From positions 62,001 to 126,000 of the forward strand of contig JAEUUL010000008.1 of the NCBI GenBank assembly GCA_016787485.1: DNA of 64,000 nucleotides. The letters run 5' to 3'. Made by a program: the position numbers and the translations under genes. Position 1 is the first letter of the stretch, and every line of letters begins with the position of its first letter. This DNA comes from Bacteroidota bacterium (GTDB taxonomy: Bacteria; Bacteroidota; Bacteroidia; NS11-12g; UBA955). The notes beneath the pieces were generated by a model that ran no database searches, was not told the DNA's origin, and saw only the letters and a list, made by a program, of their open reading frames with translations. Of this stretch, positions 33,281-39,834 are shown one piece after another.

Positions 33281-33988
33281 TTAATCCACCAACCCGTTTT
33301 GCAGGGCGTACTTAATCAGGCCTGCGGTATTGCGGGCGTTGATGCGCTGGATCATGTTGTTGCGGTGGTTATCTACCGTACGCTTTGCCAATCCCAGGAA
33401 TTTGGCGATTTCATCGTTCGTGTATTCCAGAGCAATCAGCCGCAGGATTTCCAGCTCTCTCGGGGTAAGTTCTTTGGGATTTACACCTACCACTTCGGTT
33501 TTTACGCGGTTGTTATCTACGGCAAAGTCGTTGTGCACTTCTTTGCTATAGTAATAGTTGCCTGCAATCACTTTGGAAATGCAATCCTGCAACTCATCCA
33601 CACCAATATTCTTTAATATATAACCCCTGGCACCGGCCTTTATCATTTTGGCCACATAGGTGGTTTCGTCGTAATTGGAAATGCCTATGGATTTTACAGT
33701 GGGATATAATTTGAAAAGAAACTCAACCAATTCATCACCGGTATGCTCTCCCATGCGGTAATCGATAAACGCCACGTCGATTTTCTGCGTTTTTACAAGC
33801 TCTTTGGCACGGTCCACAGAGTCAGCCTCGTGCACCCTGAAAGATGTTTTATTGATGGAAGAAAGAATGAGTTTAATTCCGTCGCGGATAATCTGGTGAT
33901 CATCTGCAATCAGCACATCTAGGTATTGGGGAAGATTCCTTGAATTTCCAGCTGTACTCCTGAGTTTTTGCGACTTTTCCATACGCAT
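33281..33988 (-). CDS. NarL/LuxR-type response regulator
   Basis: A 235-residue regulator. The receiver domain (about 22-145) has the acidic pair ADD at 28-30, the phospho-acceptor Asp76 (AFIDYRMG) and the late Lys (YILKNIG). The C-terminal LuxR-type helix-turn-helix (about 170-232) contains LTPRELEILRLIALEYTNDE and KRTVDNHRNNM. It overlaps the 3' end of its kinase gene by 70 bases, so the first 20 or so residues are read from DNA that also encodes the kinase C-terminus. ATG 33982 is an alternative start. Confidence 0.93.
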   Translation of the reverse strand: MRMEKSQKLRSTAGNSRNLPQYLDVLIADDHQIIRDGIKLILSSINKTSFRVHEADSVDRAKELVKTQKIDVAFIDYRMGEHTGDELVEFLFKLYPTVKSIGISNYDETTYVAKMIKAGARGYILKNIGVDELQDCISKVIAGNYYYSKEVHNDFAVDNNRVKTEVVGVNPKELTPRELEILRLIALEYTNDEIAKFLGLAKRTVDNHRNNMIQRINARNTAGLIKYALQNGLVD

Positions 33989-35073
33989 TCTCCGTGAATA
34001 AATTTTGCACGGGTTGCAATATTAAGCAATCCCATCCCATTTTTTTTATTTTTTTTGTCGAATCCCACTCCATTGTCTGTGAGACGGATTTCAAACCGGT
34101 TCAGACTGCACAGTACAAAAATACCGATTTGCTTACAACCACTGTGCTTCAAGGAATTTGTAATGAACTCCTGGATGATACGAAAAACATTGACTTCAAA
34201 ATCTTTGTCAACGTCTTTTTTATCGATGGAAATATGCATGACAAACTGGGTGTTGTTTCGGATCCTGAATTTATCCACCAACAGCTCCAAAGCCTTACCC
34301 AGTCCGACCTCGTTTAGTGTGCGGGGCATGAGATTAAAACATACAGAACGTATTTCTTCAGCGAGGCTATCCACTACACTAAGACATTTCATAGCCACTT
34401 CTTCGCGTATGGCGGCGTTGCCTTTTGAAGCCAGCACCTGCACAAACATTTTCAGTCCGGCTATCTGCTGCCCGATTTCATCATGAAGGTCCTGTGCCAG
34501 GCGGTTTCTTTCAGCTTCCTGGGTGCTGATAATGGCCTGAACCAGTTCCCTGTCCTTGCGGCGCAAATCCGTAATATCCGAAATGGTTGCAACGAAGCCG
34601 GTGTCATATTCATTCAGGCGTATGGCATTGATTTTTACGGAAACCTCAAGCTGACCCGTGGCTGTTTTCAACCTGCCTTCACCATTGAAGTGGTAGTTGT
34701 GCCTTCCGCACCGGTACAGTATTTTCTTCAGGTCGTTGTCTTTTAGTTTGAGCACATCTGTGAGGCTCAATCCCCCCCAGGGTACTCCTGCAGAATGTTT
34801 CAATGCACTCTGGTTCTGGTCTGTAATGATTCCCTTTTCATCCATTACAAACAGAAGACTGTCTACTTCATTGAAAATATTGAGAAAATAATCCCGGTTT
34901 ACCGTGGTGGCACTGAGTTCTTCGCCAAGCATATTGATGGCGGCACCAAAAGAGTCAAAAACGTCGAAATTGCCAGAGATTTCAACACTTGGGGTAAAGT
35001 TTCCCTTGCAGAACTCCAGCAGGACCTGCTCAATTTCTGCCAACCGGGGGTGATCCAGTACCTCGGTACTCAT
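33919..35073 (-). CDS. Soluble sensor histidine kinase (HisKA_3 type) with PAS domain
   Basis: A 384-residue kinase with no membrane segment, so the signal is sensed in the cytoplasm. Residues 1-60 are helical, about 62-170 are a PAS domain (FNEVDSLLFVMDEKGIITDQNQ, ending ATISDITDLRRKDRE). The HisKA_3 dimer helix carries His197 (LAQDLHDEIGQQ). The ATPase has EFITNSLKHS (N box), DNGVGFD and GMGLLNIATRA. It pairs with the overlapping NarL-type regulator. The ligand of the PAS domain cannot be told from sequence. Confidence 0.93.
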   Translation of the reverse strand: MSTEVLDHPRLAEIEQVLLEFCKGNFTPSVEISGNFDVFDSFGAAINMLGEELSATTVNRDYFLNIFNEVDSLLFVMDEKGIITDQNQSALKHSAGVPWGGLSLTDVLKLKDNDLKKILYRCGRHNYHFNGEGRLKTATGQLEVSVKINAIRLNEYDTGFVATISDITDLRRKDRELVQAIISTQEAERNRLAQDLHDEIGQQIAGLKMFVQVLASKGNAAIREEVAMKCLSVVDSLAEEIRSVCFNLMPRTLNEVGLGKALELLVDKFRIRNNTQFVMHISIDKKDVDKDFEVNVFRIIQEFITNSLKHSGCKQIGIFVLCSLNRFEIRLTDNGVGFDKKNKKNGMGLLNIATRAKFIHGECVWKSRKNSGVQLEIQGIFPNT

Positions 35074-35079
35074 AGGGGT

Positions 35080-35466
35080 TTACTTATACGTCTGCAACCA
35101 GGCCAATGCTTCCTCTTCTGTGCGAAAAATCTTTGTGGGTATCACATTGTCGTTATTCAGCACCAGAAAAAACTGAACCACCATTTTGGTAAACGGATTG
35201 GTGACAATGAATGCACCGGCAGAAACACCTTCGATGCCTTCGGCTTTGGACATGTAAATCCTTGCCTCCCTCTTCACTTCTTTTATACCTTCGTCCTGCA
35301 ACAGCATAGGCATCTTTCTGCCTTTCAACAAGTTAAGTCTGTCTGAAACGATAGAATGGGCAGCATTCAGGTCAATTACCGCACCTTTCCTATACCATGC
35401 ATACAGGATTCCTTCCCGGATTTCGAACCTAATGTACTGGTTCTCAAAATATTCCTGATGCGACAT
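35080..35466 (-). CDS. Small STAS/SpoIIAA-like protein of unknown function
   Basis: A 128-residue soluble protein. It has alternating strands and helices with LLQDEGIKEVKREARIYM and IVTNPFTKMVVQFFLVLN. The pattern is like the DUF7793/STAS-like proteins found near Bacteroidota regulators; this is recognition by eye, not a search. The final part (KIFRTEEEALAWLQTYK) is the typical end of such domains. It precedes the kinase by six bases, so it is likely part of the signalling unit. The ATG at 35466 is preferred over the in-frame TTG at 35487. Confidence 0.65.
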   Translation of the reverse strand: MSHQEYFENQYIRFEIREGILYAWYRKGAVIDLNAAHSIVSDRLNLLKGRKMPMLLQDEGIKEVKREARIYMSKAEGIEGVSAGAFIVTNPFTKMVVQFFLVLNNDNVIPTKIFRTEEEALAWLQTYK

Positions 35467-35495
35467 GAATGAATGGCTTTTGGTCAATTTTTCCT

Positions 35496-35503: not shown

Positions 35504-35525
35504 GTATTAAATACTCAAACCGTCT

Positions 35526-35563
35526 AGGTATTTATACTCTTGTGCGCTAGTAGTATAATACCT
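35526..35563. repeat. Imperfect inverted repeat in the divergent promoter region
   Basis: AGGTATTTATAC (35526-35537) is mirrored by GTATAATACCT (35553-35563), differing by one base in length. It lies between the two divergent operons, directly upstream of a GAACTTTG box that may be the synthase -7 element. A binding site for the divergently encoded response regulator is possible. Confidence 0.45.
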
Positions 35564-35590: not shown

Positions 35591-38008
35591 ATGCTGAAAA
35601 ATCATGAATTCGTCAACGCCGTTCAGGGAATGGTGAACAAAGGACTGGAGCAGGGGATTGTGCACTTGTACACCGATGACGAACGGGTTGACCCGGGATA
35701 CCTGCCACTTGCAGGGGAGCAAATAGCCAATTTTGGCTCATGCAGCTACCTCGGACTGGAGCATGATGAACGGCTGAAACAGGGTGCTGTAGATGCAATC
35801 ATGCGCTACGGAACCCAGTTTTCAAGCAGCCGTGCCTATGTTTCAACCGGTGCATACGGCCTGTTTGAGGAGCAGCTGCGTGAAATATTTCAGGCACATC
35901 CTGTTGTAGCCCCCACCACCTCGCTGGGCCATATTGCCACGCTGCCCACCATAGTTGGCGACAATGACGTGGTGCTGCTGGACCACCAGGTGCACAGCAG
36001 TGTACAAACGGCGGCAAAAATTCTGAAAAGCCGGGGAATAACGGTAGAACTGATACGGCACAACCGGCCGGACCTGATAGAACAGAAGATTCTTGAATAC
36101 CAGAGCAGATGCAACCACATCTGGTATCTGGCCGATGGAATTTACAGCATGTATGGTGATGGTGCCCCGGTTGCCGAACTAACCCGGCTGATGAACAAGT
36201 ATGAGCAGTTTTACTGCTATGTGGACGATGCCCATGGAATGAGTTGCTTTGGCCGCAACGGGGCCGGATATGTGCTGGACCATGGACCGCTGCACCCCAA
36301 AATGGTGCTGGCTGTAAGTTTTGCCAAAGCTTTTGCCACAGGTGGCTCTGCCATTGTGTTTCCAAATCAGGAATGGGCTCACACCGTGCGCAGTTGTGGC
36401 GGCCCCATGATTACCTCTGGTCCGCTGCAGCCCGCCACCCTTGGCGCCGCCATTGCCAGTGCACAAATCCACCTGAGCCAGGAGATATATAGCCTGCAGG
36501 AAGACCTGCATGACAAAATACGGTTTACCGAATTCCTGTTGCAAAAGGCTGGATTGCCCCTGATCAAAGACAACCTGTCTCCGGTATTCTTTATTGGAAC
36601 TTCCGCACCAGACGCGGCTTTCAAAGTGGTAGGAAACATGATGAAAGACGGATATTACCTCAATGTTTCAGCCTTTCCTGTCGTACCTATGAAAAATGCC
36701 GGAATCCGTTTTACAATTACCCGAAGCAATGAATTTGACCAGATTGAGCAAATGGTGGCTCACCTCAAAGACCATTTTCACAATGTGATTGAAGAGGAAA
36801 ATATCAGCTTGAACAAAATTTATCAGGCATTCAAAAAAACTCCCCCTGCCCTGCCCGAAACTCCAACCCGGGTTTCAGAACCTGCAAAAAACAATGGGAT
36901 AAGTCTGCACCACCACCGCAGCGTTCAGGAACTGAACCGTGCTGAATGGGATGGATTGTTTGCCGGCAAAGGCAACTATGATGCCGCGGCACTGGAAATG
37001 ATGGAAAAAGCATTTACCCGGCAGGGCCTTCCCGAATGCCACTGGGACATGGACTACCTCATCATACGCGACAGCAGCAATACGCCGGTGCTGGCCACCT
37101 TTTTTACCAGTACTCTGGTGAAAGATGATATGCTGGCTGATGAAACCCAGAGTGAAATCCTCGAAACCTTGCGCAGAGGTGGTGATAAATACTACATGAC
37201 CAGCCGTGTTACCATGATGGGCAGCCTGATAACTGAAGGAGATCATCTGTACCTGAATGAACACCACCCGCTGCGGGAAGAAGCGCTGGGTGCAATGATG
37301 AAATTTCTGGAAACACTGCAAAAGGAAAGAAAATCAGACAGTATCATGCTCCGGGATTTCGATGCAAACAGCCATATGAACCCGGAGTCGGTTGCCACCC
37401 GCTATGACTATATGCGCAAAGAATTGCCCCTGAATTACAGCCTGGACCTCACACTTTGGAATGATTTCGAGGGGTATCTGAATCACTTGGGTTACAAAAG
37501 CCGGAGGCATATAAGGCGAAATGTGCTGCCCTTACTGGACCAGTTTGAGGTGCGCACTGATAAAACCCTTATGGATCCTGAGGTTTGGTACAAACTGTAC
37601 CTTAATGTTCAGGAAAACGGCCGTACCCTGAATACCTACCCACTTCCCGTTGAATTTTTTAAAGAGATGCAGAATACTGTGGGTTGGGATGTGTTAGAAC
37701 TGGTGGACAAACAAAGCGGAAAAGCGGTTTGTGCGGTGTACTCCTACCTCACAGGAGGTGTATGCCACACCATGCTCATCGGCCAGGATTACGATTACAA
37801 TCCATACCGTCCGGGTATGATAGAAACCATAAAACGGGCTAAAGAACTGGGCTGCACTACCGTGCAACTAGGCTACAGCGCAGATATGGAAAAAATACGT
37901 CTGGGCTGCACAGGTAAACCAAAGTTTGCACTGATACAGACCCAGGACACCTTCGCGTATGAGTATATTTCCATGCTGGACACCAAAAAGAAAGGAAACA
38001 TGGCGTGA
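35591..38008 (+). CDS. Fused alpha-oxoamine synthase/GNAT acyltransferase
   Basis: An 805-residue two-domain enzyme. Residues about 1-405 are a PLP-dependent alpha-oxoamine synthase (the KBL/serine palmitoyltransferase/BioF group): DGIYSMYGDGAPV, VDDAHG at 211-216, and the cofactor lysine Lys246 in AVSFAKAFATGG. After a linker (about 410-440), residues 440-800 resemble BioF2/FemAB-like GNAT acyltransferases (GYKSRRHIRRNVLPLLD). The first half would condense an amino acid with an acyl-CoA; the second could acylate the product amine. Sphingolipid, sulfonolipid or a small secondary lipid are candidate products, none proven. The next gene overlaps it by four bases. Confidence 0.85.
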   Translation: MLKNHEFVNAVQGMVNKGLEQGIVHLYTDDERVDPGYLPLAGEQIANFGSCSYLGLEHDERLKQGAVDAIMRYGTQFSSSRAYVSTGAYGLFEEQLREIFQAHPVVAPTTSLGHIATLPTIVGDNDVVLLDHQVHSSVQTAAKILKSRGITVELIRHNRPDLIEQKILEYQSRCNHIWYLADGIYSMYGDGAPVAELTRLMNKYEQFYCYVDDAHGMSCFGRNGAGYVLDHGPLHPKMVLAVSFAKAFATGGSAIVFPNQEWAHTVRSCGGPMITSGPLQPATLGAAIASAQIHLSQEIYSLQEDLHDKIRFTEFLLQKAGLPLIKDNLSPVFFIGTSAPDAAFKVVGNMMKDGYYLNVSAFPVVPMKNAGIRFTITRSNEFDQIEQMVAHLKDHFHNVIEEENISLNKIYQAFKKTPPALPETPTRVSEPAKNNGISLHHHRSVQELNRAEWDGLFAGKGNYDAAALEMMEKAFTRQGLPECHWDMDYLIIRDSSNTPVLATFFTSTLVKDDMLADETQSEILETLRRGGDKYYMTSRVTMMGSLITEGDHLYLNEHHPLREEALGAMMKFLETLQKERKSDSIMLRDFDANSHMNPESVATRYDYMRKELPLNYSLDLTLWNDFEGYLNHLGYKSRRHIRRNVLPLLDQFEVRTDKTLMDPEVWYKLYLNVQENGRTLNTYPLPVEFFKEMQNTVGWDVLELVDKQSGKAVCAVYSYLTGGVCHTMLIGQDYDYNPYRPGMIETIKRAKELGCTTVQLGYSADMEKIRLGCTGKPKFALIQTQDTFAYEYISMLDTKKKGNMA

Positions 38009-38322
38009 AACGGGAAAGGAAAAATACAGAACTGTTTCACCTTACTCCGTCTGAATATCAGGCCCTGGGTGTCCGGAGCCGGGCCAAAATTCTGGAATGG
38101 AAAGGTGAAAAGCTCATAGGGCCTGTTACCGGACAGGATTGTGATTACTCACTGTACTCCCTGTACCGGTTTCTGATAGAAAAAATAGAAAAAGTAGATG
38201 GCACTCTCATGGATTTGCGCATTCTGCACACAACGCAGCATTTGCACCGCTATGCGAGAAGCATACGCATAGAACTGGATGATGGGAAACTTGTGGTACA
38301 GAAACGGCAAGATGATGGATAG
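38005..38322 (+). CDS. Small protein coupled to the oxoamine synthase fusion
   Basis: A 105-residue protein starting at GTG, which overlaps the synthase stop (GTGA). It is soluble, with a basic start and the blocks LTPSEYQALGVRSRAKILEWKGEKL and YSLYRFLIEKIEKVDG. I recognise no family. Tight coupling to the fused enzyme suggests a partner or regulatory subunit, but that is inference only. Confidence 0.7.
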   Translation: MKRERKNTELFHLTPSEYQALGVRSRAKILEWKGEKLIGPVTGQDCDYSLYSLYRFLIEKIEKVDGTLMDLRILHTTQHLHRYARSIRIELDDGKLVVQKRQDDG

Positions 38323-38326
38323 TCCT

Positions 38327-39820
38327 TCAGGCCGGCAAACCGGTCAATTCAGTTCCATAGTGGACAATATGCCCTTTATCCAGCACCAGAAAACGGTCTC
38401 CAAGGGCACGGGCTACCTGCAGATTGTGGGTAATGAAGATGTAGATCATGCCGGTTTGCGCCTGCAAGGACTTTAATAAATCCAGTATTTGCTTTTGCAC
38501 CAGCGGGTCCAGGGCAGCTACAGATTCATCCAGAATTAACACCCTGGGTTCGGAAGCCAAAGCCCTGGCTATGCAGAGTCTCTGTCTTTGTCCACCGGAA
38601 AGCTGATGTGGGTAACCATTTGCCATCTCCCTGCTCAGGCCCACTTTCCCAAGCAGTGCCATTGCTTTTGCATTCGCAGCCGCGTGGTTTTCTCCTTTTA
38701 CCCTGAAAACTTCTGATACTGTGTACAAATTGGTCAATTCCATGTTCAGACTGGCATATGGATCCTGAAAAACCATTTGAATACCTGTGGGTTTTCCTGT
38801 TTTTAATCTCGCCCCATTGAAATACAACATTCCGGTATCGGCATCTTCCAGGCCGGTGAGTATGCGGGCAATCGTGGATTTTCCACTGCCCGAGAAGCCC
38901 ACCAGGGCCAGAGTTTGCCCGGATGACAACGCAAATGATACATCTTTAAGAGCCTCGAACAGCTTTCCTTTGTGCCTGTACAGTTTTCCCAAATGTTCTG
39001 CCTTTAGAATTGCATCTGAATCGGCCACTCTATGGTTTTTGGCAGTTGGATTGGCGTCCAGGAGTTCCCGCACATAGGGATGTGGATTTTCCGACAGCAC
39101 TTCTTCACGGGTTCCCGAAACCACCACTTCACCCCGGCGCATTACAGTAATAAACCGGCAATATTTTGCCACCGTTTCCAGATCATGGCTAACCAAAATC
39201 AGCGCAGACCCCATCTTTGTGCAGGTATCCACCAGGGCATCCATAACCCCGGAGGCAGAAATGGTGTCCAGTGCTGTTGTGGGTTCATCGGCCAGCAGCA
39301 GTGCCGGCTTGTGCAAACTCGCCATTGCAATCATGATCCGTTGTCTTTGCCCGCCGCTGATCTGGTGCGGATAGCTTTGCAAAAACCGTTCGGTTTCCGT
39401 AAATCCCACCTGCAGCAACGCTTTATTGATCTCTTCTGCTGCATTTTGTGCACTGCCATGTACACACCACGCTTCCATCAACTGTTCCCCGCAGGTCATC
39501 TGGGGATTCAGCGCAGTCATTGGTTCCTGAAAAACCATACCGATATGGCGGCCACGCAGTGTTCTCCATATTTTTTCACTTGTATTATATAAGGAGTGGT
39601 TGATTTCGCCCAGATGAAAAACTGCCTCACCGGTGCAGGTAAGTCCGGGTGCCAGGAGCCCGGCAATTGAAAGCAATGTGAGAGACTTGCCACTGCCGCT
39701 TTCGCCTATGATGCCATGAATTTCTCCGGGCCTGACCCATAAACGGGGCACAGTGGCCAAAGTGCGCTTTCCGCTGGCAATCTGCATATTGTTCAGTTTC
39801 AGCAAAACCTCTTTATCCAT
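38327..39820 (-). CDS. Tandem ABC ATPase of the oligopeptide transporter type
   Basis: A 497-residue protein with two complete ATPase domains, like DppD and DppF fused. Domain one (about 1-245) has GESGSGKS, ISGGQRQRIMIAM and LLLADEPTTALD. Domain two (about 265-497) has GFSGSGKST, LSGGQRQRLCIARAL and VLILDESVAALD. It would power an opp/dpp-type importer, but no permease or binding protein gene adjoins it, so partners must lie elsewhere. The ATG at 39820 is used; the in-frame TTG at 39829 falls within the promoter box. It is tail to tail with the small gene at 38005. Confidence 0.9.
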   Translation of the reverse strand: MDKEVLLKLNNMQIASGKRTLATVPRLWVRPGEIHGIIGESGSGKSLTLLSIAGLLAPGLTCTGEAVFHLGEINHSLYNTSEKIWRTLRGRHIGMVFQEPMTALNPQMTCGEQLMEAWCVHGSAQNAAEEINKALLQVGFTETERFLQSYPHQISGGQRQRIMIAMASLHKPALLLADEPTTALDTISASGVMDALVDTCTKMGSALILVSHDLETVAKYCRFITVMRRGEVVVSGTREEVLSENPHPYVRELLDANPTAKNHRVADSDAILKAEHLGKLYRHKGKLFEALKDVSFALSSGQTLALVGFSGSGKSTIARILTGLEDADTGMLYFNGARLKTGKPTGIQMVFQDPYASLNMELTNLYTVSEVFRVKGENHAAANAKAMALLGKVGLSREMANGYPHQLSGGQRQRLCIARALASEPRVLILDESVAALDPLVQKQILDLLKSLQAQTGMIYIFITHNLQVARALGDRFLVLDKGHIVHYGTELTGLPA

Positions 39821-39826
39821 GCAGGG

Positions 39827-39834
39827 CAAAGGTA
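39827..39834 (-). promoter_or_regulatory. -7 box of the ABC ATPase gene
   Basis: TACCTTTG on the minus strand, exact to the consensus, ends six bases before the ATG at 39820, so the message should be leaderless. Confidence 0.55.

Follow-up and report, generated by a model that had tools for sequence, protein, structure and literature searches.

A fused alpha-oxoamine synthase and GNAT enzyme in a conserved Bacteroidota cassette with a histidine kinase, and its possible role in signalling

The fusion enzyme and its locus

The window (the whole 64,000-nt stretch of Bacteroidota DNA analysed here) encodes an 805-residue protein that contains an alpha-oxoamine synthase (AOS) half (approximately residues 1-405) and a FemAB-like GNAT half (approximately residues 430-805). 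The genes for a DUF7793 protein, a histidine kinase and a response regulator lie upstream of the fusion gene and are divergent from it, while a small gene lies directly downstream. The features of the locus are as follows.

33281..33988, minus strand: NarL/LuxR-type response regulator, 235 aa, with Response_reg and GerE domains
33919..35073, minus strand: soluble histidine kinase, 384 aa (HisKA_3 and HATPase_c by Pfam); a kinase is near 36 of 41 fused loci, and the cassette kinases are orthologous
35080..35487, minus strand: DUF7793 protein, 135 aa, SpoIIAA/CRAL-TRIO-like, candidate product carrier (PF25056; 3bl4 profile match; linked in 38 of 41 fused loci)
35504..35514, no strand: candidate operator 1, GTATTAAATAC, an enriched inverted repeat
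35528..35537, no strand: candidate operator 2, GTATTTATAC, an inverted repeat and the sole GTATNNATAC in the window
35553..35561, no strand: candidate operator 3, GTATAATAC, an inverted repeat
35591..38008, plus strand: fusion enzyme, 805 aa (Pfam; catalytic residues invariant in 65 of 65 relatives; comparison of 41 fused loci)
38005..38322, plus strand: small partner, 105 aa; in 15 of 21 clade loci a homologous small ORF starts no more than 500 bp past the fusion

A preliminary description of this DNA placed a full PLP enzyme and a BioF2/FemAB-like acyltransferase in one chain. The 805-aa ORF confirms this, with Aminotran_1_2 (residues 45-376; 65.7 bits, cut-off 19.7) and Acetyltransf_6 (PF13480; residues 636-764; 31.3 bits, cut-off 22) both above their Pfam cut-offs. 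FemAB_like (PF04339) matches residues 444-715 at 23.8 bits, under its Pfam cut-off of 27. Of 37 members, 27 match Acetyltransf_6 and 15 match FemAB_like at E<=0.01. The best NCBIfam model for the fusion, PRK07505/NF005697 ('hypothetical protein'), gives 261.1 bits, under its cut-off of 342. The AOS half scores 141 bits on the BioF model, far under the NCBIfam cut-off, and falls below the cut-offs of the SPT models NF047600 (137 vs 640 bits) and NF047599 (138 vs 500 bits) and of the AHK autoinducer synthase model (CqsA/LqsA; NF005526; 65.9 vs 428 bits). Its match to the solved CFAT 28eh is 62.7 bits, with BioF- and SPT-named chains ahead at 114 and 103 bits. AlphaFold models made without an alignment had mean pLDDT values of 35 and 41 and were set aside.

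Lys246 and the VDDAHG motif are where they had been placed. According to the preliminary description, it would be refuted if most homologues lacked a key residue, and no such loss is found: H135, D182, D212, H215, K246 and R373 are unvarying in all 65 AOS relatives. In the AOS fold, K246 is presumably the PLP lysine, D212 the conserved aspartate, and H135 the stacking histidine. Residues W453, K511, D513, R528, G544, D589 and K768 are among those of the GNAT half that are identical in all 41 aligned fused members, including locus L105, whose sequence begins, at a contig end, within the AOS half. From its family and its intact catalytic residues, the AOS half is predicted to convert an acyl thioester and an amino acid to an alpha-aminoketone, and the FemAB/GNAT half would then alter the alpha-aminoketone, most likely by N-acylation. 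The two-step chemistry proposed at the outset appears to fit both domains and their conserved residues.

Its proposed membership in sphingolipid or sulfonolipid chemistry finds no support. Specifically, a sphingolipid or sulfonolipid synthase was ruled out by the failed SPT models, by the distance of the fusion from SPT and KBL in the tree described below, and by a separate CFAT-like paralogue in the same genome (locus L003; 579 bits to 28eh vs 220 for SPT). The KBL of this genome scores over its cut-off. In E. coli, the sphingolipid cluster has yghO as its presumptive N-acyltransferase gene, according to the part of PMC9386255 available. The GNAT half has no BLASTP similarity to YghO (best piece E=2.1), which leaves room for more distant homology, and bCerS (of the YghO/CCNA_01212 kind) was rejected as its identity on this result. 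A PF04339 match is present in Caulobacter, but it could not be linked to bCerS.

It is very improbable that the fusion is a one-chain sphingolipid or sulfonolipid variant, with an AOS half in the role of SPT or CFAT and a GNAT half in that of ceramide synthase. The two systems share, in principle, AOS plus acyltransferase chemistry; the domain order matches condensation followed by acylation, and bacterial ceramide synthesis has been proposed to acylate before reduction (PMC11087976, in the sections available). However, the fusion differs from SPT/CFAT and ceramide synthase in its model scores, its place in the tree and its YghO-unlike GNAT half, its genome has its own CFAT-like gene, its distribution is patchy (67 of 395 genomes), and it is linked to two-component genes.

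The small partner has a GTG start at 38005 that gives a 4-bp overlap with the TGA stop of the fusion gene, as the preliminary description had it for a 105-residue ORF. It has no matches in Pfam, NCBIfam or PHROGs, and a convincing PDB or Pfam relative was not found. Nevertheless, the ORF belongs to a real family, with homologues starting at most 500 bp past the fusion in 15 of the 21 loci of the closest clade, window included. A sixteenth clade locus, L085, has a homologous small ORF approximately 550 bp from the fusion; none was found in the other five, of which L072 has a contig that ends 226 bp after the fusion. Profiles from two other subfamilies of the small protein recover the 105-aa protein at E values of 4e-7 and 3e-4 (Z=1000). 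No homologue was found beside the 24 unfused AOS genes. We think that the small partner is a subunit or a regulator of the fusion.

Convergent with the small partner is a 500-aa ORF (38327-39829, minus strand), apparently a tandem-ATPase ABC protein. At locus L067 this position is occupied by a gene from the same sequence cluster, which indicates that the flanking order is kept between L067 and the window.

A conserved cassette and its two sensor designs

Some AOS match is present in 68 of the 70 genomes of the window's family, mostly generic paralogues at about 20-23% identity, and the full-length fusion is present in 13 of the family's genomes, including the window's own. Genome G040 contains the fusion in pieces only (L016, which is G040:C76, and G040:C81), one with an internal TAG stop, and the fusion may be decaying there. 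In a sample of the class, close AOS relatives (E<=1e-35) occur in 67 of 395 genomes, at 76 places. The family and class searches together gave 86 close-relative places beyond the window, with G040 uncounted, of which 60 were compared with their flanks. With four named loci and the window, this makes 65 loci, 41 fused and 24 unfused. The named members of the AOS group are Bacteroidota, namely Lacihabitans and a Bacteroidetes MAG.

In a maximum-likelihood tree, 64 of these loci (L105 omitted) form one group with support of 99/97, separate from PRK07505-type enzymes of rhizobia and enterobacteria, from the SPT of E. coli, and from the KBL and CFAT-like enzymes encoded in the window's own genome. 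The unfused AOS are one side of a branch with support of 87/94. A stand-alone GNAT partner was sought in 20 genomes with unfused AOS and six others and was rejected; weak matches were obtained in 16 of the 26, mostly to the second half only, with a best E of 4e-18.

The strongest evidence comes from the neighbouring DUF7793, kinase and regulator genes, which the preliminary description had passed over and which suggest a signalling role. A DUF7793 gene lies no more than three genes away at 38 of the 41 fused loci, a kinase (mostly soluble) at 36 and a regulator at 24; the corresponding numbers for the 24 unfused loci are 0, 15 and 14. The window's own regulator is uncounted in these tallies, as it overlaps the kinase and was not called as a gene. 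At a distance of at least five genes, the 283 background genes of the fused loci include nine kinases, nine regulators and three DUF7793 genes, and 20 control loci of KBL or CFAT-like AOS paralogues have a nearby kinase in three, a regulator in two and DUF7793 in none. Compared with the control paralogues, Fisher p values are 4e-8 for the fused and 0.002 for the unfused loci, in a test that assumes an independence absent among related genomes. The genetic linkage of synthase, kinase and regulator exceeds background.

Nine of the 24 unfused loci, including all three from Lacihabitans, have no kinase by profile search. Three further unfused loci (L113, L116 and L117) have a regulator, of the LytTR type in L113, whose neighbour in each case comes from a single gene family; in L113 and L116, the two of these loci that were tested, this neighbour is a histidine kinase by Pfam.

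In the 21-locus clade of the window, most kinases belong to a single orthologous type that carries an NMLGEEL motif, and the best match of a cassette kinase is another cassette kinase in 17 of 19 cases. The two exceptions are L080, which best matches an L085 kinase just beyond the three-gene radius, and L084, whose kinase is different and longer. A crude count from hydropathy (mean >=1.3 over 17 residues), which was our estimate of transmembrane (TM) segments, finds no hydrophobic segment in the window kinase. By the same count, kinases near fused AOS have at most two such segments in 37 of 39 cases, with both exceptions in L104, while kinases near unfused AOS have five or six N-terminal segments in 14 of 16, four in one and none in one.

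The sensor kinases CqsS and LqsS each have six TM segments and are encoded together with synthases of the AOS type (PMC3376566, in the part available). Like the alpha-hydroxyketone quorum-sensing systems CqsA/CqsS of Vibrio and LqsA/LqsS/LqsR of Legionella, the present cassette encodes an AOS-family synthase with a sensor kinase; a response regulator is also encoded in lqs, and the kinases of the unfused sister clade are mostly 6-TM-like, as CqsS and LqsS are. Unlike CqsA and LqsA, the AOS of the window fails the AHK model and is fused to a GNAT half, and its partner kinase is a soluble one with DUF7793 beside it. It is unlikely that the fusion is a true CqsA/LqsA-type synthase that makes an exported simple alpha-hydroxy- or alpha-aminoketone, with a GNAT half that tunes acyl supply or is regulatory. 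The unfused sister clade, with its synthase, 6-TM kinase and regulator, resembles the lqs and cqs clusters as described in that part of PMC3376566 and favours such an assignment; the AHK model score (66 vs 428 bits), the lack of a membrane sensor domain in the kinases of the fused clade and the many invariant residues kept in the GNAT half argue against it.

The DUF7793 protein of the window scores 121.9 bits on PF25056 (cut-off 26) and 14.1 bits on SpoIIAA-like (PF11964), below the cut-off of 25. Its likeness to the SpoIIAA-like CRAL-TRIO/STAS-type proteins (3bl4; 2ook/2q3l) is that of the family profile, which matches PDB 3bl4 at E=3e-14, and among 27 relatives 16 reach E<=0.1 on SpoIIAA-like, the best at 2.9e-7. 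In the open form of the SpoIIAA-like proteins 2ook and 2q3l there is a nonpolar cavity, and the available sections of PMC2954212 propose that they carry nonpolar compounds at the membrane. DUF7793 is present in 182 of 395 genomes, often in several copies; the genome of the window has a single copy, at this cassette. Several fused loci (L085:10942-13180, L095:2746-4116 and L097:10734-11527) have two or three DUF7793 genes in tandem where others have one.

Inverted repeats in the divergent promoter

The 103-bp divergent intergenic region contains three GTAT-n-ATAC inverted repeats with a spacing of 24-25 bp. The motif was first spotted by eye in 13 upstream regions and tested afterwards. The 33 intergenic regions between DUF7793 and AOS genes contain 25 sites in 15 regions; 1000 shuffles gave 1.3 on average and never more than 6. 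The 264 control upstream regions of the same loci (48.7 kb) contain eight. There are none upstream of the 24 unfused AOS genes.

The single GTATTTATAC is not enriched genome-wide (12 vs 10 for the reversed control), while the paired GTAT-n-ATAC form is rare, with two places in the whole 3.4 Mb of the genome, one of them here, and none for its reversed control. The second place is upstream of an operon of three genes, the first of which encodes a probably secreted protein of 1515 aa whose start resembles a signal peptide; ssb is divergent from this operon. Because this site lies between L159:4839-9386 (minus strand) and L148:1645-2037 (plus strand), in C22 of the same genome, either side could be the target. 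In 40 genomes, the paired form is present in eight of 30 with the fusion and in none of 10 without it, a contrast that is not strong by itself; the reversed control is present in one of 40. Other genomes also have paired sites before genes for Phage Tail Collar-domain proteins (L160) and, at L168, before that of a protein without a Pfam match that appears secreted and reminiscent of tail fibres. Five further paired places outside the cassette (L161, L162, L163, L164 and L169) have mixed neighbours, which leaves the regulon tentative.

A signalling explanation

The association of the fusion, the carrier-like protein, the kinase, the regulator and the repeated promoter motif is conserved, and this is secure. 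A conserved cassette that includes a kinase, a regulator and a lipid-carrier-like protein suggests that the enzyme makes a fatty molecule for signalling and not an ordinary lipid of the membrane. On sequence evidence, there is about an even chance that the cassette is a Bacteroidota signalling system in which the fusion makes an (N-)acylated aminoketone sensed by the cytosolic kinase. Likewise, the product of the fusion is likely the ligand of the kinase, though here too the balance is close to even. The DUF7793 protein, resembling CRAL-TRIO-type carriers, would take up the lipophilic product and present it to the soluble histidine kinase. The kinase, judging from the domains, would phosphorylate the NarL-type regulator, and the regulator would bind the GTAT-n-ATAC repeats observed in the divergent promoter. 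The regulator would thereby control synthase and sensor together, plus a few other operons, some for secreted proteins.

Several observations count against signalling. The AOS half scores 66 bits, compared with a cut-off of 428 for the AHK synthase model; two-component linkage is also expected if the system only regulates the enzyme; the fusion has no conserved neighbour that is a transporter or a reductase; nine of 24 unfused loci lack a profile-detected kinase, though three of the nine have a LytTR regulator with another kinase type; DUF7793 is common elsewhere (182 of 395 genomes); and the single GTATTTATAC is unenriched in the genome.

A less probable but substantial alternative is that the fusion makes a specialised (N-acyl) aminoketone lipid of the envelope, not a signal. 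The kinase would then sense another input, for example envelope state, redox or energy, the regulator would activate the enzyme via the shared promoter, and DUF7793 would be a lipid carrier or a partner-switch regulator. The shared divergent promoter with its candidate operators, the cytosolic kinase, and the presence of DUF7793 and such kinases away from AOS are all consistent with a regulated lipid pathway. However, the same AOS clade is linked to soluble kinases with DUF7793, to mostly 6-TM HisKA kinases and to LytS-like kinases, and a mere regulator need not be a kinase every time. For one synthase clade with different sensors, sensors that read the product are probably an easier explanation than mere regulation.

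A more tentative extension of the signalling explanation, and a doubtful one, is a new signalling class, with an N-acylated aminoketone signal made by one polypeptide, CRAL-TRIO-like delivery to a cytosolic kinase and NarL-type feedback, in which the 6-TM kinase of the unfused relatives reads the unacylated product. Published lists of AOS-based quorum sensing, in the available parts of PMC3376566 and PMC5289986, name Proteobacteria and Chlorobiaceae, not Bacteroidota. A literature search, which covered few subscription papers, found no account of this fusion or of AOS/kinase cassettes in Bacteroidota. If the signalling explanation is true, Bacteroidota gain a signalling system based on a lipid, in which synthase, sensor, regulator and candidate operator are all defined, and with it a testable case of hydrophobic signal delivery to a soluble kinase. 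It would also place this branch of DUF7793, and the new small protein family, in a functional context for the first time.

The nearest outgroup in the tree and the best-scoring model for the fusion are both of the PRK07505/NF005697 type, a group of AOS of unknown function on rhizobial and enterobacterial plasmids. Three plasmid members tested exceed the model's cut-off, whereas the window is below it (261 vs 342 bits), and the plasmid genes are unfused. A search for related AOS on plasmids matched 166 records, and eight loci were viewed. Three of the eight (L139, L140 and L143, from S. meliloti, Mesorhizobium and Rhizobium sp. SL42) are near transcription-factor-type response regulators, and the other five have no response regulator nearby. 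The rhizobial PRK07505-type AOS are possibly, on weak grounds, a further AOS signalling group; of the three regulator-linked loci, two have an autoinducer-binding protein nearby and one has an AHL synthase.
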